Source: Exiguobacterium alkaliphilum 12/1
GTDB taxonomy: Bacteria; Bacillota; Bacilli; Exiguobacteriales; Exiguobacteriaceae
DNA: 64,000 bases
Direction: 5' to 3'
NCBI RefSeq assembly: GCF_000714435.1
Contig: NZ_JJMW01000013.1
Location: 1-64,000 of the forward strand
The translations under genes were made by a program, and so were the position numbers. This document shows positions 14,049 to 58,899 of this stretch, piece after piece. The notes below the pieces were generated by a model. That model saw only the letters and a list, made by a program, of their open reading frames with translations. It had not been told where the DNA came from and made no database searches. The stretch's first letter is position 1; each line of letters opens with the position of its first letter.

Positions 14049-14057
14049 TGTTATAAT
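14049..14057 (+). promoter_or_regulatory. fba promoter, extended -10
   Basis: TGtTATAAT: perfect -10 hexamer with the TG extension one base upstream. The -35 region is weak, as is common for extended -10 promoters. It lies about 68 bp before the fba start codon. Confidence 0.65.
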
Positions 14058-14124
14058 GGGAACGAATTGCACGGGGGCATTTTTCCCAAAGTGCACAATA
14101 GCGAACAGACAGGAGGATGTCATT

Positions 14125-14979
14125 ATGCCATTAGTATCAATGACAGAAATGCTTAACAAAGCATTCGAAGGCAAGTATGCAGTAGGCCAATTCAACATCA
14201 ACAACCTCGAGTGGACGCAAGCGATTCTTCGCGCTGCGGAAGACGAGAAATCACCAGTTATCCTCGGTGTATCTGAAGGTGCGGCGAAGTACATGGGTGG
14301 CTTCACAACAGTTGTCAAGATGGTTGAAGGTCTCATGCACGACTACAACATCACTGTTCCAGTTGCAATCCACCTCGACCACGGTTCTTCTTTCGATAAG
14401 TGTAAAGCAGCGATCGACGCTGGTTTCACATCAGTCATGATCGACGGTTCACACCATCCGATCGAAGAGAACATCGAAATGACGAAACAAGTCGTTGAAT
14501 ATGCACACGCTAAAGGCGCTTCAGTTGAAGCGGAAGTCGGCACAGTCGGCGGCGAAGAAGACGGCGTTGTCGGTGGCGTACAATACGCTGACCTCGACGA
14601 GTGTGTTCGTGTCGTAACAGAAGCGAAAGTTGATGCACTTGCAGCAGCACTCGGTTCAGTACACGGCGAATACCAAGGCGAGCCAAAACTCGGCTTCAAA
14701 GAGATGGAAGAAATCGCAGAAGCGACGAAAACTCCACTCGTTCTCCACGGCGGATCAGGGATTCCTGAGCACCAAATCAAAAAAGCAATCGAGCTCGGCC
14801 ACAGCAAAATCAACGTCAACACAGAGTGCCAACAAGAGTGGACTCGTGCGGTACGTGAGAAAGTCGCTGCTGACTCGAAAGTATATGACCCACGTAAAAT
14901 CATCGGACCTGGTATCGAAGCGATCTACAACGTCGTTACTGGCAAGATGCGTGAGTTCGGTTCAAGCAACCAAGCGTAA
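14125..14979 (+). CDS. fba: Class II fructose-bisphosphate aldolase
   Basis: Zn-dependent glycolytic aldolase splitting fructose-1,6-bisphosphate to DHAP and glyceraldehyde-3-phosphate; 284 aa. Class II motifs are seen: [20 protein letters not shown] (catalytic Asp and Zn His), [14 protein letters not shown] (Zn Glu) and VLHGGSGIP (Zn His). The ATG at 14125 follows CAGGAGGATG; an in-phase ATG 23 codons upstream lies in the leader. The codon choice (runs of ATC, GAA, AAC, CTC, GGT) suggests high expression. It is followed by its own terminator, and carries a cre site and extended -10 promoter upstream. Confidence 0.97.
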
Positions 14980-15976: not shown

Positions 15977-16627
15977 ATGCAGTTTTTCATTGACACGGCA
16001 AATGTGGAAGACATCAAGAAAGCCCATCGGATGGGCGTCATCGGGGGCGTGACGACCAATCCATCGCTCGTCGCGAAAGAAGGCGTCGACTTCCATACAC
16101 GACTTCGTGAAATTTGTGAGATCGTCGGGGATCTCTCGGTCAGTGCGGAAGTTATTGCACTCGATGCAGCGGGTATGGTGGAAGAAGGAAAGGAACTTGC
16201 GGCCATCGCGCCGAATATTACAGTCAAGGTGCCTATGACACCAGACGGGATGGAAGCGGTCCATGAGTTTGCGAAACTGGGTATCAAGACGAACGTGACG
16301 CTCATCTTCAACGCCAACCAAGCGCTACTCGCGGCTCGGGCCGGTGCGTCCTACGTATCGCCGTTCATCGGACGCCTTGACGATATCGGACAAGATGGGC
16401 TTGACCTCGTCGAGACAATTGCCGACATCTTTGCCATCCATGGCATCGAGACGGAAATCATCGCCGCATCGGTTCGCCATCCAGTCCATGTGACGAAGGC
16501 GGCGCTACTCGGTGCCGACATCGCCACCGTACCGTACAAAGTCATCGAACAGATGATGAAACATCCGCTCACTGACAAAGGAATCGAGCAGTTCCTCGCG
16601 GATTGGAACAACGCTCAATCCAAATAA
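15977..16627 (+). CDS. tal: Transaldolase, short (TalC/MipB) type
   Basis: 216-aa transaldolase/fructose-6-phosphate aldolase family enzyme of the pentose phosphate pathway. It begins [16 protein letters not shown] and holds the Schiff-base Lys84 in [15 protein letters not shown] near the N-terminus, and [11 protein letters not shown]. Short-form proteins with this N-terminus between fba and murA2 are the usual Bacilli transaldolase (B. subtilis YwjH). Start behind CGAGGAGG. The murA2 gene begins 27 bp downstream and glpX follows, so the three may be one unit. Confidence 0.93.
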
Positions 16628-16654: not shown

Positions 16655-17905
16655 GTGGAAATTCTCCATATCGTTGGACAGCAAAAACTAGAAGGCAGCG
16701 TCGACATCAGCGGTGCCAAACAAAGCGCCCTGCCGTGTCTCGTCGCCGCGCTCCTCACGGAGGAGCCGGTCACGATTGAGAACGTGCCGGTCATCGAGGA
16801 CGTCGAAGTGATGCTGAACTTGTTACAAGAGCTCGGCGTCACCGTCGAGCGGGACGGGGAGCGGATGACGCTCCACGCGAAAGACGCGTTCCCGATGCCG
16901 CTCCTCGGCTCCGAAACGCGGAAAGTTCGGGCTGCTGTCTATTTGCTTGGGGTGTTCGCGGCCCGTTTCAAAAAAGGGGCCGTCGGGTTGCCGGGAGGAT
17001 ATGCGATTGGTCCACGACCGATCGATTTACATTTAAAAGCGTTAGAACGGCTTGGCATTCACGTCGAGAACGAGTCTGGTCTCTATCATGTCACAGTCGA
17101 CAAGTTAGTCGGCGACCGAATTTACCTCGACCTTCGTTCGTTCGGGGCGACGGTGAGTGCGATGCTCGCCGCGGTCCTCGCCGAAGGGACGACGGTCATC
17201 GAGAACGCCGCGATCGACCCGGAAGTCGTCGACGTCGCGACGATGCTCACATCAATGGGGGCGCATGTCGTCGGCGCCGGGACGGACGAGATTCGTATCA
17301 AAGGGGTCGAGCGCTTGCACGGTTGCACGCATACGCTCATCCCGGACCGTCTTGAAGCCGGGACGTTCATGATTTATGGGGCGGTGTCCGGGGACGTGAC
17401 CGTACAAAACGTCATCCCGCATCACCTTGAAGGCGTCATCCAGAAGTTGCGTGATTACGGGGCTGAGGTCGAAGTCGGGGAAGAAGCGATCACGGTGCGG
17501 GCCAAGGCGTTTCTGCCGACCGACATCCGCGTCTTCCATTACTCGGGTTATCCGACCGACCTCCAACCGGTCATGTCGGCCGCACTCTTGAAAGCGGACG
17601 GGACGAGCATCGTCACGGACAAGCTCTATGCCCAACGCTTCCGTCATATCGCGGAAATGCGGCGCATGAACGCCCAAATCACGCTCGAGGACGCCTCTGC
17701 CGTCATCCGTGGCGGTAACCCGCTCGCGAACGCCGAGATGGAATGTGCCGACGCACGGAGCGGTGCAGCCCTCGTCTTGTCGGGACTTCAAGCGAGCGGT
17801 GAATCGACATTGATTCATGCGGAACGACTGCACGACTCATACGTCGACTTTGTCGGCAAACTAAAACGACTCGGCGCACTCGTCTGGGTAGATGAGGCCG
17901 AGTAA
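16655..17905 (+). CDS. murA2: MurA2 paralogue lacking the catalytic cysteine
   Basis: UDP-GlcNAc enolpyruvyl transferase fold, 416 aa, in the conserved Bacilli murA2 position between tal and glpX. The EPSP-synthase-like double inside-out barrel is full length and the frame intact. The active site is unusual: the PGGC loop reads [15 protein letters not shown], with Tyr116 (TAT, 17000-17002) in place of the Cys that binds PEP and fosfomycin. Gln23 replaces the Asn after Lys22, the FENRF motif is YAQRF, the TDLR motif is ADAR, and the DRGY motif is HDSY with Asp394 where an Arg is expected. Lys22 and the PTD(L)Q Asp remain. Start GTG 16655 gives numbering that matches E. coli MurA; TTG 16646 is too close to AGAAAGG. 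Fold certain, normal activity doubtful. Confidence 0.88.
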
Positions 17906-17922: not shown

Positions 17923-18891
17923 GTGGAACGTAGTTTATCAATGGAATTGGTCCGGGTCACGGAAGCGGCAGCGCTCGCTTCGGCCCGTTGGATGGGGAAA
18001 GGCTTGAAAGTGGAGGCGGACGACGCCGCGACGACCGCGATGCGTGACGTCTTCGACACGATTCCGATGAAAGGGATTGTCGTCATCGGCGAAGGTGAGA
18101 TGGACGAGGCACCGATGCTCTACATCGGGGAGAAAGTCGGGAACGGCTATGGCTCTCGCCTCGACGTCGCCGTCGACCCGCTCGAAGGGACGAGCATCGT
18201 CGCGACGGGGACATGGGGCGCCCTCGCCGTCCTCGCCGTCGCGGACGCGGGCGATCTGCTCCACGCGCCAGACATGTATATGGACAAGATTGCCGTCGGA
18301 CCGGAAGCGGCCGGACTCATCAGCCTCGACAACACGATTGAAGAGAATATCGAAATCGTCGCCAAGGCGAAAGGCAAGAACGTCGAGGACGTCGTCGTCA
18401 CGATTCTACACCGGGAACGTCATGAGGAAATCATTCAACGCGTTCGCGCGACGGGTGCCCGAATCAAGCTCATCCCGGACGGTGACGTCGCGGCGGCCAT
18501 CAACACGGCGTTTCCGAAAACGGGCGTCGACTTGTTGCTCGGATCTGGCGGGGCACCTGAAGGCGTCATCGCCGCCGTCGCCATGAAGTGTCTCGGGGGG
18601 GACTTCCAAGGCCGTCTGCTCCCAGAGGATGAGGCGCAAGAGAAGCGTTGCCAAGACATGGGCATCGCCGACACGGGACGCATCCTGCTCCTCGATGACC
18701 TCGTCAAAGGCGAGGATTGCATCTTTGCCGCGACCGGGGTCACGGACGGCGAGTTGCTCCGGGGTGTCCAATTCACGGGACAAGGCGGACAGACGCACTC
18801 GGTCGTCATGCGGGCCAAGTCCGGGACGGTCCGTTTTGTCGAAGGCATCCATTCGTTGAAGAAAAAACCGAAGATGGTCATGAAACCTTGA
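17923..18891 (+). CDS. glpX: Fructose-1,6-bisphosphatase, class II
   Basis: GlpX-type metal-dependent FBPase of gluconeogenesis, 322 aa. Seen: the N-terminal [18 protein letters not shown], metal-site [26 protein letters not shown], and the C-terminal [16 protein letters not shown]. It starts at GTG 17923 after AAAGGGGAGAATTCGG, 17 bp past murA2, and ends before a terminator. Its pairing with fba and tal links it to hexose/pentose carbon flow. Confidence 0.95.
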
Positions 18892-18928: not shown

Positions 18929-18990
18929 GATGTGTCGTCACATAGTTAAATATGAAAAGAACGGGAATAAACAAGCAGGAGGTGGAAGGC

Positions 18991-19917
18991 ATGATTGAAG
19001 TGGAATCGCTCGTCAAGTCGTACGATGACGTCCCGGCCGTCGACGGCGTCTCGTTCTCGGTGGCGGAAGGGGAAGTGTTCGCCTTTCTCGGTCCGAACGG
19101 GGCCGGCAAATCGACGACGGTGCAAATGTTGACGACGCTCGTCCGGCCGACATCGGGTACGGCACGCGTGAACGGCTTTGACGTCGTCAAACATGAGAAG
19201 GACGTGCGGCTGTCCATCGGGGTGGCGCTCCAAGAGACGGGCATCGACAAAGACTTGACCGGTCGCGAACTGCTCGTTCTGCAAGGTCGTCTCTTCAAGA
19301 TGACGAAACAAGAAGCGGAGGCGCGAGCCGAGGAGTTGCTCCGTGTCGTCTCGTTGACGGATGCGGCCGACCGGCGCAGCGGGACGTATTCAGGCGGGAT
19401 GCGGCGCCGCCTCGATTTGGCGCTCACGCTCGTTCATCGCCCGACAGTCTTATTTTTGGACGAACCGACGACCGGGCTCGACCCGGCGAGCCGAATCGAG
19501 ATTTGGAACGAGGTGAGACGGTTGAACGAACAGTTCGGGACGACCATCTTTTTGACGACCCAGTACCTAGAAGAGGCCGATGAGCTCGCTGACCGCATCG
19601 CCATCATCAACCACGGGAAAATCGTCAGTGCCGGGACGGCGGAAGAGTTGAAACGGCTCGTCGGCGGAGAGACGATCGCGATGACGTTCCATACCGAGCG
19701 CGAAGCATCAGAAGCGGCGTCTGCTTTCGAGAAGACGGCGTCTGGTCTACATGTCTCGTTCGAGCTCGAGGCGCTCACGTTGACGGATGTCGTGCGGCGG
19801 CTCGATGAACGTATGCTCCAGCCCGAACGGTTGACCGTCAAACAACCGTCGCTCGACGACGTGTTCTTGAAGGTGACAGGGGAATCGTATGAAGGAGGAG
19901 TGCCGAATGTGGACTGA
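18991..19917 (+). CDS. ABC exporter ATPase, DrrA-like
   Basis: 308-aa ATP-binding subunit of an ABC-2 type exporter of the daunorubicin-resistance (DrrA) group. Walker A GPNGAGKST, signature SGGMRRR, Walker B VLFLDEP and the LDP D-loop are all present; after residue 215 comes the extra C-terminal domain, ending with the DrrA-type PSLDDVFLKVTG. The start is ATG 18991 after AGGAGGTGGAAGGC. It overlaps the permease gene by 11 bases, so the two are coupled. Likely exports a hydrophobic compound or a lipid; substrate unknown. Confidence 0.9.
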   Translation: MIEVESLVKSYDDVPAVDGVSFSVAEGEVFAFLGPNGAGKSTTVQMLTTLVRPTSGTARVNGFDVVKHEKDVRLSIGVALQETGIDKDLTGRELLVLQGRLFKMTKQEAEARAEELLRVVSLTDAADRRSGTYSGGMRRRLDLALTLVHRPTVLFLDEPTTGLDPASRIEIWNEVRRLNEQFGTTIFLTTQYLEEADELADRIAIINHGKIVSAGTAEELKRLVGGETIAMTFHTEREASEAASAFEKTASGLHVSFELEALTLTDVVRRLDERMLQPERLTVKQPSLDDVFLKVTGESYEGGVPNVD

Positions 19918-20677
19918 GACGTGGTTGTTCACGAAGCGGAGTTTATTGACGACGATTCGCAATCCATTTTCATTTATCCCGAACTTGATTATCTCGGTCT
20001 TCTTCCTACTAGTGTATACGAGCGGATTGTCGAGTGTCGCCTCGTTGCCGCAGTTCGAAGGGAGCGCCTATTTGAACTTCATTCTACCTGTCTCCATCGT
20101 CTCTGGGGCTGTCGGCGGTGCTGGTGGGACCGGTCAGGCGCTCGTCCGCGATATCGAGAGCGGGTATTTCGCAAGGCTCCTCTTGACGCCGGCGACACGG
20201 ACGGCCATCGTGCTTGGCCCGATGATCGCCGGAATGTTACAACTGCTCGTTCAGACGCTTCTTATCTTTGCGGTGGCGTTCTTGCTCGGCTTGAACATTC
20301 CGGTCGGTCTGCCTGGCTTCTTGTTCACGGTGTTGCTCGCCATCGGGTTCGGTCTCGGGTTCGCCGGCTATTCGGTCGGTGTCGCCTTGAAAACAAGAAA
20401 TGCGCAAGCCGCGCAGGCGGGGACACTACTCTTTTTCCCGCTCATCTTCTTGTCGACGACGTTTGTACCGAAAGAACTGATTGAAGCGGAGTGGCTCAAA
20501 GTGGCCGCGACATTTAATCCGACGACATACATTTTCGAAGGGATGCGCGCCGTCTTGACCCAGCCGACGATTGACTGGGGGGCGCTGTCGGCCGGACTCG
20601 CCGTCGCGGGGACGATGAGCGTTATCATGATTGTGTTCGCGGCGACGAACGCGCGGGGCGCACTCAAACAAAAATGA
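19907..20677 (+). CDS. ABC-2 type exporter permease, DrrB-like
   Basis: 256 aa with six membrane segments and the ABC-2 permease layout (cytoplasmic N-terminus, conserved NPTTYIFEGMRAVL loop before the last segment). It partners the ATPase encoded just upstream, the two frames overlapping by 11 bases. Start ATG 19907 follows AAGGAGGAGTGCCGA; an in-phase ATG six codons earlier sits on the binding site itself. Confidence 0.9.
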   Translation: MWTETWLFTKRSLLTTIRNPFSFIPNLIISVFFLLVYTSGLSSVASLPQFEGSAYLNFILPVSIVSGAVGGAGGTGQALVRDIESGYFARLLLTPATRTAIVLGPMIAGMLQLLVQTLLIFAVAFLLGLNIPVGLPGFLFTVLLAIGFGLGFAGYSVGVALKTRNAQAAQAGTLLFFPLIFLSTTFVPKELIEAEWLKVAATFNPTTYIFEGMRAVLTQPTIDWGALSAGLAVAGTMSVIMIVFAATNARGALKQK

Positions 20678-20703
20678 CGAGCCGGCTCATGCCGGCTCGT
20701 CAT
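20674..20703. terminator. Bidirectional terminator, ABC permease / small membrane gene
   Basis: Perfect stem ATGACGAGCCGGC/GCCGGCTCGTCAT with a 4-base loop between convergent genes; it overlaps the last codons of the minus-strand gene. Confidence 0.8.
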
Positions 20704-21085
20704 CAATCATAAAGGTCACGATTAAAAATAAGATGAAGCTGATGAGCGAGAACGTTCCACCGATGATGAAATAGACCATCGTGAACGTCTCGTTCCACTC
20801 GAACGGATTCATCGCGTACAGCCACATCCCGCTCGTCAATCCGATTGAGCCGATGACGGCCGTCCAGCCGTGGATGCTGACGAGCACAGGGCGCTTGACG
20901 CGATACAGGCGATAGAACACGCCCCAGGCGAAGACGGATAGCCAACCGGCGAGCAAAATATGGGCATGGATGGGACGGAAGGCGTAACTGCCGGCCCCTG
21001 ACATGTGCGACCCGATTGCCGTCCCGATAACGCCGAACACAGCGGCGAGGCGGATGAGACGCAGACTCCACGTTCTTTCTAACAT
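20687..21085 (-). CDS. Small four-helix membrane protein, heme-copper oxidase subunit I-like
   Basis: 132 aa with four membrane segments. The motif RPIHAHILLAGWLSVFAWGVFYRL and a second His in VSIHGWTA resemble a short piece of cbb3-type oxidase subunit I or NorB, where such His residues bind heme. Comparable short proteins occur in other Bacilli, usually labelled as oxidase-subunit-like with no known role. Heme binding is inference from pattern. The start is ATG 21085 behind ACAAGGAG; a longer in-phase frame upstream has no site. Confidence 0.6.
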   Translation of the reverse strand: MLERTWSLRLIRLAAVFGVIGTAIGSHMSGAGSYAFRPIHAHILLAGWLSVFAWGVFYRLYRVKRPVLVSIHGWTAVIGSIGLTSGMWLYAMNPFEWNETFTMVYFIIGGTFSLISFILFLIVTFMIDDEPA

Positions 21086-21160
21086 ATGAATCACTCCTTG
21101 TTTCAAGATGTTGTCCAGTATACAACAGAAAGATGAACGGAAAATGAACAGAACGACATG

Positions 21161-21194
21161 AAAAAACGACTCGGTTCCGATGAACCGAGTCGTT
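21161..21194 (-). terminator. Terminator of the NlpC/P60 gene
   Basis: Stem AACGACTCGGTTC/GAACCGAGTCGTT with a T tract on the minus strand. Confidence 0.85.
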
Positions 21195-21206
21195 ACAGGT
21201 TTTAAA

Positions 21207-21905
21207 TTAGAGGTACGATCCTGCACCGACATAACGTGGTGCCCAGTAGCCTGATGTGAAGCTCGCGTATTTAACGCCGCCTGTTTCAGAGTTGATCATT
21301 TGTGTTTTGCTGAGTGCCATTCCGACGTGTTGAATCGTGCTTCCGTTGTGTGAGAAGAACACGAGGTCCCCAGCTTGAATCGCTGACTTCGAAACTTTTT
21401 TCGAGTTTGCGTATTGTGAGCGTGAGTCACGTGGGATCGTCTTGTTGATTGCTTTCTTGTAGACATGGCCCGTGTAACCTGAGCAGTCAAATCCAGCTGT
21501 CGTCGTGCCACCGAAGCGGTACGGTACGCCAAGGTACTTTTTCGATTCAGCAACGAGTTTCGAACGTGCGCTTGAAGCTGTTGACGTTGACGCCGTCGTT
21601 ACCGTCGAAGCGGTAGCGGCTTGCAAGTACGTGTACGTTGATGAAGCTGAGATGTAACGGTGCGTCCCTTTGTAGTTGATCTTGTAGAAAGAACCGACTT
21701 TACCAAGGTATGTATAACGTTGGCCTTTATCCATCTTAGCTACGACTGATGAGTTGAGTGACGCCGATGTACGGATGTTCAAACCGTTCACTTTCGAATA
21801 AGCGAATGTTCCAGTGGAAGCTTCAGCTTGTTCGCTCGTTGTGAAGGCGAGACCCGAGAACGCGAGAGTGGCAGCGACGATGATAGATGCGAAACGCTTT
21901 AACAT
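21207..21905 (-). CDS. Secreted SH3b-NlpC/P60 peptidoglycan endopeptidase
   Basis: 232 aa. Signal peptide (residues 1-29, cleavage near AEAS), one bacterial SH3 domain (about 35-95, SKVNGLNIRTSASLNSSVVAKM), a Thr/Ser-rich linker (95-112), then an NlpC/P60 catalytic domain with Cys in TTAGFDCSGYTGHVY and His in GSTIQHVGMAL. Such enzymes cut the D-Glu to diaminopimelate/Lys bond of wall peptides during growth. Start is the ATG behind GGAGGGAATCACATT. A WalR-like box lies about 170 bp upstream, consistent with control of wall hydrolases by WalRK in Bacilli. Confidence 0.93.
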   Translation of the reverse strand: MLKRFASIIVAATLAFSGLAFTTSEQAEASTGTFAYSKVNGLNIRTSASLNSSVVAKMDKGQRYTYLGKVGSFYKINYKGTHRYISASSTYTYLQAATASTVTTASTSTASSARSKLVAESKKYLGVPYRFGGTTTAGFDCSGYTGHVYKKAINKTIPRDSRSQYANSKKVSKSAIQAGDLVFFSHNGSTIQHVGMALSKTQMINSETGGVKYASFTSGYWAPRYVGAGSYL

Positions 21906-22281
21906 AATGTGATTCCCTCCGTTTTCTAAAATAAAACCCTGTGATTGTATATGGTCGATGTGTGATGACGATAGTAGAGCACAAGTTGCGAGTATTACCC
22001 GGTTTCCTGTGCAAATAAACTATATCATGCGCAAGACCGATGGCATTTTTCAATCACAAGTCAAAAAACAGTTTTCTTGTAACATATTTGAAACAATATG
22101 CGACGATAAAGACTTATTTGTTACATAGAAACAAAAATGTCCGTTTTCTTTTGAACATCAGGGGAATAGACTGTCATAAAGCCGTTTTTAACAAGTGACG
22201 TCAATGAAAAATTGTGATTAGATGAATGAGAACTTTACAAATATTTTTCAAATATAGAAATATGAAAGACAGGTGACTTGC
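21906..22281. other. Divergent intergenic region, NlpC/P60 gene and rho
   Basis: About 375 bases, distinctly AT-rich compared with the genes. It must hold the promoters of both divergent units. No clear -35/-10 pair stands out on either strand. Arms GTAACA (22079-22084) and TGTTAC (about 22119-22124) face each other across about 35 bases, and a WalR-like direct repeat is noted separately. No ORF is supported here. Confidence 0.5.
22078..22094 (+). promoter_or_regulatory. WalR-like box
   Basis: TGTAAC-ATATT-TGAAAC, one mismatch from the WalR (YycF) consensus TGTWAH-N5-TGTWAH. Wall hydrolase genes are typical WalR targets and the adjacent NlpC/P60 gene is one. The sequence match is seen; the role is inference, and such short AT-rich motifs arise by chance. 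Confidence 0.35.
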
Positions 22282-23622
<1,341 letters not shown>

Positions 23623-57596: not shown

Positions 57597-58899
57597 ATGA
57601 AGGATTTGATTGTAGTCCGTGGAGGACGTAAATTGTCAGGTACTGTGCGTGTAGAAGGAGCAAAAAACGCCGTACTCAAAACATTGGTTGCCACTCTATT
57701 GGCGAGCGAAGGAAAATCGGTACTTCAAAACGTACCACGTCTCGCCGACGTATACACGATTAACAAAGTACTACGCCACCTCGGTGCAGAGGTCGCATTC
57801 GATGAAGCGAACAACGAAGTCACAGTCGACGCCTCGGGCACAATCAAAGACGAGGCACCACTCGAGTACGTTCGCAAGATGCGTGCCTCGATCCTCGTCA
57901 TGGGTCCTCTTCTCGCTCGTCTCGGTCACGCGCGCGTCGCGATGCCGGGCGGTTGCTCGATCGGGTCACGTCCGATCGACCTCCACTTGAAAGGGTTCGA
58001 AGCGATGGGTGCGAAGACGGTCATCGGCAACGGTTTCGTCGAAGCGTCAGTCGACGGTCGCTTGAAAGGCGCGAAGATTTACCTCGACTTCCCATCTGTC
58101 GGCGCGACAGAGAACATCATGATGGCGGCGGTCCTCGCTGAAGGCACGACGGTCATCGAGAACGTCGCGAAAGAGCCGGAAATCGTCGACCTCGCGAACT
58201 TCTTGAACGGTATGGGCGCACACGTCCGCGGTGCCGGTACAGAGACGATTCGCATCGAAGGCGTGGAGAAGCTCCACGGTGCCGAGCACTCGATCATCCC
58301 GGACCGCATCGAAGCGGGCACGTTCCTCGTCGCAGGCGCCATCACAGGCGGCGACATCGAAGTCATCGGGGCAGAGCGTGAGCACCTTCGCCCGCTCATC
58401 TCGAAGATGGAAGAGATGGGTGTTCAGTTCGAAGACACAGCGGAAGGCATGCGCGTCATCGCGCCGGACGAGTTGAAGCCGGTCGATGTGAAGACGATGC
58501 CACACCCTGGTTTCCCGACTGACATCCAAGCACAAATGATGGCGCTCGTTTTAAAAGCTGGCGGCACATCAGTCATTACGGAAACGGTGTTTGAAAACCG
58601 CTTCATGCACGTGGAAGAGTTCCGCCGCATGAACGCAGACATACAAAATCGAAGGACGTTCCGCAATCATCAAAGGTGGCGTTCGCCTCCAAGGTGCCGA
58701 AGTCGTCTCAACAGACCTTCGCGCCGGTGCAGCACTCGTGCTTGCAGGCCTCATTGCCGACGAGGAGACTCGTGTCGGCGACTTATATCATATCGACCGT
58801 GGCTACGTCGACTTCCACAAGAAACTTCAAGCACTCGGTGCCGACATCGAGCGCATCGAAGGGACAGTCGAAGTCGCTGAAGAAATGGTCAACAACTAA
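57597..58899 (+). pseudogene. murA: murA1 (UDP-GlcNAc 1-carboxyvinyltransferase), frameshifted
   Basis: The main MurA, first step of peptidoglycan synthesis, in the ywzB-murA-mbl order. Catalytic Cys is present in [15 protein letters not shown], Lys22/Asn23 in VEGAKNAVL, the Asp in GFPTDIQAQ, and FENRFMH. After FRRMNADI the frame is lost: the sequence GACATACAAAATCGAAGG has one extra A (58643) relative to GACATCAAAATCGAAGG. Read one base over, the expected end appears ([36 protein letters not shown]) and stops at 58899, giving a normal 433-residue enzyme. As written the frame ends with 75 foreign residues at 58880 and lacks the C-terminal active-site motifs. MurA being essential, a sequence error is likely. 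Confidence 0.9.

Follow-up and report, generated by a model that had tools for sequence, protein, structure and literature searches.

A MurA2 paralogue without the catalytic cysteine is conserved in 38 of 38 Exiguobacteriales genomes

Introduction

Many Bacilli encode MurA twice, and why they keep the second copy is debated. The locus described here brings that question to a point. The window analysed is a 64,000-nucleotide stretch of the Exiguobacterium alkaliphilum 12/1 contig NZ_JJMW01000013.1 (positions 1 to 64,000, forward strand). It carries at 16655..17905, on the + strand and with a GTG start, a gene that translation, alignment and tree place as murA2 (the murZ/murAB orthologue) and that lacks the catalytic set of MurA. 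A preliminary description of this gene proposed a pseudoenzyme or an enzyme with a changed job. Has the protein given up the reaction for which its family is named, and, if it has, what keeps the gene in place? We address these questions by comparison with MurA sequences across the order and the class. Published work is cited by PMC number.

Results

Active-site replacements and their distribution

The murA2 reading frame encodes 416 amino acids with zero internal stops, and the sequence AGAAAGG lies upstream of the GTG at 16655, its end about 11 bases away. Alignment with E. coli K-12 MurA reveals the clear replacements N23Q, C115Y, V163F, L370A, R397D and G398S, with K22, R91, R120, D123, S162, G164, D305, R331, D369 and R371 unchanged. 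Tyr116 (codon 17000..17002, +) occupies E. coli position 115, where Cys is the site of the PEP adduct and of fosfomycin action, and sits within [14 protein letters not shown]. Gln23 is encoded at 16721..16723, Phe163 at 17141..17143, Ala367 (E. coli Leu370) at 17753..17755 and the pair Asp394-Ser395 (E. coli Arg397-Gly398) at 17834..17839, all on the + strand. The motifs read GAKQ (N23Q), YAQRF, ADAR and LHDSY. We take the functional roles of these positions partly from MurA crystal-structure work and partly from the papers cited below. Translation and alignment agree with the preliminary description in its reading of Tyr116 for Cys, of Gln23, and of HDSY with Asp394 for Arg.

For comparison, MurA-like sequences were gathered in a class-wide search of 299 Bacilli genomes, all of which gave matches and 24 of which were searched again. 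Control rows came from 50 genomes outside the order, each represented by its top match, together with the loci returned by the searches. The resulting 153 distinct MurA-like rows comprise 38 Exiguobacterium MurA2, 60 MurA2 of other Bacilli (defined by the presence of one or more of the genes fba, tal, glpX and rho in the locus), 17 Exiguobacterium MurA1, 37 rows without that gene context, which include E. coli and named Enterococcus and Bacillus loci, and one excluded row, the broken murA1 of the window. The 115 comparison rows used below count E. coli twice.

An intact MurA2 of this type is present in 38/38 genomes of the order, which represent one family and two genera, at 63-100% identity to the window protein (86-100% inside the genus, 63-66% in the other genus). 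Position 115 is Tyr in every genome, encoded by TAT in 37 and TAC in 1, and position 23 is Gln in every genome, with both CAA and CAG in use. Position 397 is non-Arg throughout (Asp in 18, Gln in 18, Asn in 1 and Lys in 1). Tyr115 and Gln23 are thus fixed in the order, while the former Arg397 site varies. Phe163 is found in 38/38 distinct rows (other MurA2 have Val in 57/60 and Ile in 3/60), Ser398 likewise in 38/38, and position 370 is Ala in 19 and Pro in 19. Alignment with related MurA2 and with MurA1 at window positions 23, 116 and 394 therefore finds clade-wide changes. Relatives with the same gene order and Cys at 116 would, by the preliminary description, have pointed to a private mutation or read error; zero Exiguobacterium relatives carry that Cys, and Tyr with Gln in 38/38 genomes rules this explanation out. 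MurA1 of the same organisms keeps Cys115, FENRF, TDLR and DRGY in 17/17 rows.

Outside the clade, Asn23, Cys115, Arg397 and Gly398 are kept in 60/60 other-Bacilli MurA2 rows. Across the 115 comparison rows, Asn23, Arg397 and Gly398 are each found in 115, Leu370 in 112 and Cys115 in 113, the other two rows having Asp at position 115. Ninety-one sites are conserved at 97% or above in these rows, and 14 of them are replaced in the Exiguobacterium MurA2 clade: 23, 115, 128, 134, 168, 188, 233, 268, 296, 300, 365, 370, 397 and 398. Nine of the 14 (128, 134, 168, 188, 233, 268, 296, 300 and 365) are not classic PEP residues. Residues retained in 38/38 genomes are K22, R91, G114, G118, R120, S162, G164, D231, D305, R331, D369 and R371.

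The list of losses is shorter than first proposed. YAQRF in place of FENRF had been counted as an active-site loss; since Tyr328 is the residue of 56/60 other MurA2 rows, where positions 329 (Glu) and 330 (Asn) are variable and Arg331 is kept, we removed it. Of the proposed loss in ADAR for TDLR, the change at the conserved Leu370 site stands, while D369 and R371 are retained and 368 is variable. Position 396 was also struck off, as Asp is retained there in 19/38 rows.

The NCBIfam model NF009470 (cut-off 552 bits) was missed by 5/5 Exiguobacterium MurA2 tested, at 468-493 bits, and passed by 5/5 other Bacilli MurA2, at 681-740 bits. It was also missed by one Exiguobacterium MurA1 (523) and by E. 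coli MurA (492), which marks it as a MurA2-specific model. All 12 proteins tested passed TIGR01072, the general model for MurA.

Replacement at position 115 has a precedent in the Asp-for-Cys MurA of mycobacteria, Chlamydia and Borrelia. Asp stands at this site in L064 (4001-5239; Bacillus sp. AFS055030, on a very long branch) and in L126 (from Bacilli genome G229). Both retain Asn23 and Arg397, whereas the Exiguobacterium Tyr comes with the loss of both. The Asp form is active in vitro (PMC4790336), although it was not recovered in a deep mutational scan of E. coli MurA (PMC9842644). Among the matches listed, one of murA2 type in a further Bacilli genome (G073:C2:391112-392356) is interrupted by a single internal TAA.

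Gene order, origin and selection

In the window, murA2 follows fba (fructose-bisphosphate aldolase, 14056..14979, +, from the earliest listed start) and tal (transaldolase, 15977..16627, +) and precedes glpX (fructose-1,6-bisphosphatase II, 17923..18891, +) and rho (22273..23622, +). Other genes intervene between glpX and rho here; judged by eye, the interval at 18952-21905 holds an ABC transporter pair, a small membrane protein and a secreted protein of SH3/NlpC-P60 type. At most of the other Bacilli MurA2 loci read, rho falls inside the few kilobases fetched. Both tal and glpX adjoin murA2 in 38/38 distinct Exiguobacterium rows, and at least three of fba, tal, glpX and rho are found at 51/60 other-Bacilli MurA2 loci. 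The preliminary description placed its proposed pseudoenzyme or changed enzyme in the central-carbon cluster tal-murA2-glpX; because this is the common MurA2 gene order, it gives no sign of a new job.

A maximum-likelihood tree of 96 rows, in which Exiguobacterium MurA2 was represented by 10 of its 38 rows, recovered these proteins as a single clade (100/100) nested in the MurA2 branch (100/100), with a weakly supported sister. The stem of the clade measures 2.16 changes per column and that of Exiguobacterium MurA1 0.3. When stems were estimated by one simpler method for all genes, MurA2 gave 0.81 and the neighbours tal, glpX and fba gave 0.08, 0.13 and 0.10. The burst thus belongs to murA2, and the short neighbour stems rule out fast evolution of the whole lineage as its cause.

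After this burst, MurA2 is, by codon comparison, under strong purifying selection. Omega was calculated by NG86 for pairs with dS of 0.1-1.5 only (89 and 99 of 171 pairs in the two genera), and its median was 0.046 in each genus. Controls by genus were 0.037 and 0.022 for tal, 0.020 and 0.011 for glpX, and 0.019 and 0.032 for MurA1 (18 genomes), so that MurA2 is somewhat higher. The earlier judgement that this is not plain decay holds, with the gene intact in 38/38 genomes at this omega. Catalytic residues lost amid active relatives, in a gene under purifying selection, form the pattern of a pseudoenzyme, and both parts of it are found here. The genus Exiguobacterium is described as non-spore-forming; despite this, a Spo0A_C domain occurs in 38/38 genomes. 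The idea that loss of sporulation, a process aided by MurAB in B. subtilis (PMC9600426), freed MurA2 from catalysis is unsupported given these domains.

Predicted structure and consequences for catalysis

An AlphaFold2 model of the protein, built from 26 aligned sequences, reached a pLDDT of 91.6 and a pTM of 0.91. The catalytic loop, 115-120, is the sole stretch of at least three residues under pLDDT 50. Foldseek matched MurA structures with TM scores as high as 0.97, consistent with a MurA fold for the predicted structure, and the top match was the integrative MURA2-MURA1 model 9a7b.

In MurA, the PEP adduct forms at Cys115, a residue also required to release the product; C115D retains activity in vitro, and C115E does not (PMC4790336). 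The phosphonate of fosfomycin is held by Lys22, Arg120 and Arg397 (PMC4790336). In the E. coli scan, C115 accepts zero substitutions, although its authors concede incomplete saturation for Asp and Glu (PMC9842644). The least tolerant residues there are G114, C115, G118, R120, S162, G164, D231, R331, D369 and G398; eight of these ten are kept in 38/38 genomes, and C115 and G398 are lost in 38/38. Arg397 is absent from the least-tolerant table of that paper (PMC9842644). Because K22F, K22I, K22N and K22T are viable in the scan (PMC9842644), the kept Lys22 is weak evidence either way. At site 398, the scan's text permits Ser and its table has Gly and Thr (PMC9842644), and Gly398Ser may be neutral.

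The residues expected of an active EC 2.5.1.7 enzyme are therefore present in part. Lys22, Arg120, Asp305, Arg331, Asp369 and Arg371 are each found in 38/38 genomes; Cys or Asp at 115 is missing, as is the combination of Asn23 and Arg397. The joint loss of Cys115, Asn23 and Arg397 makes normal enolpyruvyl transfer unlikely, and we strongly infer from the sequences that Exiguobacterium MurA2 has lost this activity. With a catalytic set apparently gone and the gene kept, the sequence data lend support to the original proposal of a pseudoenzyme or a changed job. It also follows that MurA2, which has no thiol at Tyr116, would be insensitive to fosfomycin at this residue. The effect on the cell may be slight, given that Cys is retained in MurA1 (17 distinct rows read).

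MurA1 and the turnover pathway

The proposed partner, murA1, lies in the same window at 57597..58899 (+) and carries PGGC and FENRF. Compared with a 94% identical copy (L027), its reading frame in this assembly is broken by a shift of one base near 58640-58665. The murA1 matches in 37 other family genomes are each one open frame, and the assembly of the window's genome has a contamination estimate of 7.58%. Since MurA2 lacks the catalytic set, a truly split murA1 would leave the genome without an intact MurA, and the frame shift is likely a sequencing or assembly error. A search of the window's genome for a third MurA copy found none. The remaining PF00275 match we take to be AroA, from motifs judged by eye.

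ReoM and ReoY families are present in 38/38 genomes of the order. ReoM sequences were fetched for 30 of the 38 loci and carry the motifs MD[RQ]T and GDPAYI. The Thr of MD[RQ]T presumably corresponds to Listeria Thr7, by eye. In the window's genome, three PASTA domains lie in one frame of 653 aa, and Clp_N domains in two frames that are candidates for ClpC or ClpB; the Clp_N control gave no match in B. subtilis. Candidate genes for a ReoM-ReoY-MurZ-ClpCP pathway are found, ReoM and ReoY across the order and the PASTA and Clp_N proteins in the window's own genome.

In Listeria, deletion of murZ leads to accumulation of MurA, a substrate of the ReoM/ReoY/ClpCP pathway, and in 2020 the part that MurZ plays there was described as 'entirely unclear' (PMC7286690). 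In E. faecalis, MurAA is protected when MurAB is lost; IreB, the ReoM of this organism, binds both MurAA and MurAB, and a MurAA-2IreB-MurAB complex has been proposed (PMC12077105). A B. subtilis crosslinking study lists MurAA-MurAB among four paralogue dimers in high-scoring models (PMC10090944). Escape mutations in Listeria MurA map away from the active site and make its degradation slower (PMC8959180). On alignment by eye, the helix holding the Listeria MurA S262 site differs in the Exiguobacterium MurA2 clade at 264 and 268, with NVIPxHLE largely kept, and the position of the Listeria N197 contact (by eye, E. coli 196) is Thr in 55/60 other MurA2 rows.

Discussion

In gene order, tree position, fold and length, Exiguobacterium MurA2 resembles the MurA2/MurAB/MurZ proteins of other Bacilli; it differs from them in lacking Cys115, Asn23, Arg397 and Gly398 and in missing NF009470. 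The reading we prefer, with a probability of roughly 0.5, is that it is a pseudoenzyme kept for the second role of MurZ/MurAB, the control of MurA1 turnover with ReoM, ReoY and ClpCP. As the sequences show, MurA2 lost Cys115, Asn23, Arg397 and Leu370 in the ancestor of the order and retained the fold and many substrate-side residues, after which purifying selection has held the protein. By analogy with Listeria and Enterococcus, this protein would join MurA1 and ReoM in handing MurA1 to ClpCP, and UDP-GlcNAc or UDP-MurNAc in the retained pocket could gate the role. In these bacteria, MurA1 alone would then commit sugar to the cell wall.

A regulatory job of this kind, inferred by analogy and already suggested in the preliminary description, fits the MurZ/MurAB literature. 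MurZ or MurAB is needed for MurA turnover in Listeria and Enterococcus, where the pathway was described, and ReoM and ReoY are likewise encoded in 38/38 Exiguobacteriales. The E. faecalis MurAB is, however, an active enzyme (PMC12077105), and Exiguobacterium MurA2 is a putative member of the pathway. Elsewhere the catalysis of the second copy counts, as UDP-MurNAc drops upon murAB deletion in B. subtilis (PMC9600426). That partner control can outlast catalysis is illustrated by P. aeruginosa MurA C117S, which is called catalytically inactive and still activates LpxC (PMC9995270). The proposed Exiguobacterium MurA2 would be alike in this respect; C117S is an engineered allele with LpxC as partner, whereas Exiguobacterium MurA2 is a natural, fixed paralogue with a putative partner. 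Further points temper the turnover reading. The kept Asp305, Arg331, Asp369, Arg371 and Lys22 also serve catalysis, so that these sequences would fit a retuned enzyme as well. In addition, with nine of the 14 replaced core sites outside the classic PEP residues, the stem burst may also have altered regulatory surfaces of MurA2, and the changes at 264 and 268 in the S262 helix are a case in point.

A more specific form of the same reading, which we offer as a tentative and somewhat doubtful extension, is a separation-of-function MurA2. Tyr116 would fill the PEP side of the pocket, itself a conjecture, and the protein would close on UDP-GlcNAc or UDP-MurNAc without turnover, acting as a dedicated sensor of precursor level that would govern, via ReoM and ClpCP, how stable MurA1 is.

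The alternative that survives best, and that we consider possible at perhaps half the weight of the turnover role, is that MurA2 remains an enzyme in which Tyr116 serves as a general acid and Gln23 and the residue at 397 re-space the pocket, so that an enolpyruvyl group, or a different one, is still transferred, with UDP-GlcNAc or some other sugar nucleotide as acceptor. Retention of Lys22, Arg120, Asp305, Arg331, Asp369 and Arg371 throughout the order is consistent with this, as is the fixation of Tyr115 and Gln23 amid silent codon changes (a single such change at the Tyr), and the relatives AroA and NikO put the same fold to use on other substrates. Against it, Arg397, one of the three positive charges that bind the phosphonate (PMC4790336), is lost, with Asp, Gln, Asn or Lys in its place, and position 115 is intolerant of change in the E. 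coli scan (PMC9842644), with C115E inactive (PMC4790336).

A role unrelated to ReoM, as a ligand-gated sensor or decoy that binds UDP-GlcNAc or UDP-MurNAc and either regulates another target or competes for substrate, seems to us improbable. The kept substrate-side residues would allow such binding, and P. aeruginosa MurA controls another pathway independently of catalysis (PMC9995270). The target in Exiguobacterium is putative, however, and the central-carbon neighbourhood, being the common MurA2 gene order, points to nothing specific. LpxC, moreover, belongs to Gram-negative envelopes. Finally, a decaying paralogue or sequencing error, for which the very long stem branch might speak, is refuted by an intact gene carrying the same Tyr and Gln in 38/38 genomes at an omega of 0.046.

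Among open-licence full texts, a coverage outside which most subscription papers lie, we found no description of the Cys loss in Exiguobacterium MurA2 or of a MurA pseudoenzyme. A phylogeny study of Firmicutes MurA paralogues makes no mention of Exiguobacterium, cysteine or inactive in the portion of its text available. For annotation, the locus sets a naming trap: passing TIGR01072, a probably inactive MurA2 would be labelled as an active transferase and fosfomycin target. For the debate over the second copy, an order that has apparently dropped the catalysis of that copy yet kept the gene would be a natural experiment that splits its two roles, and it makes the regulatory role directly testable. 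If the separation-of-function proposal is true, MurA2 of the Exiguobacteriales would be a cell-wall control subunit that evolved from an enzyme.
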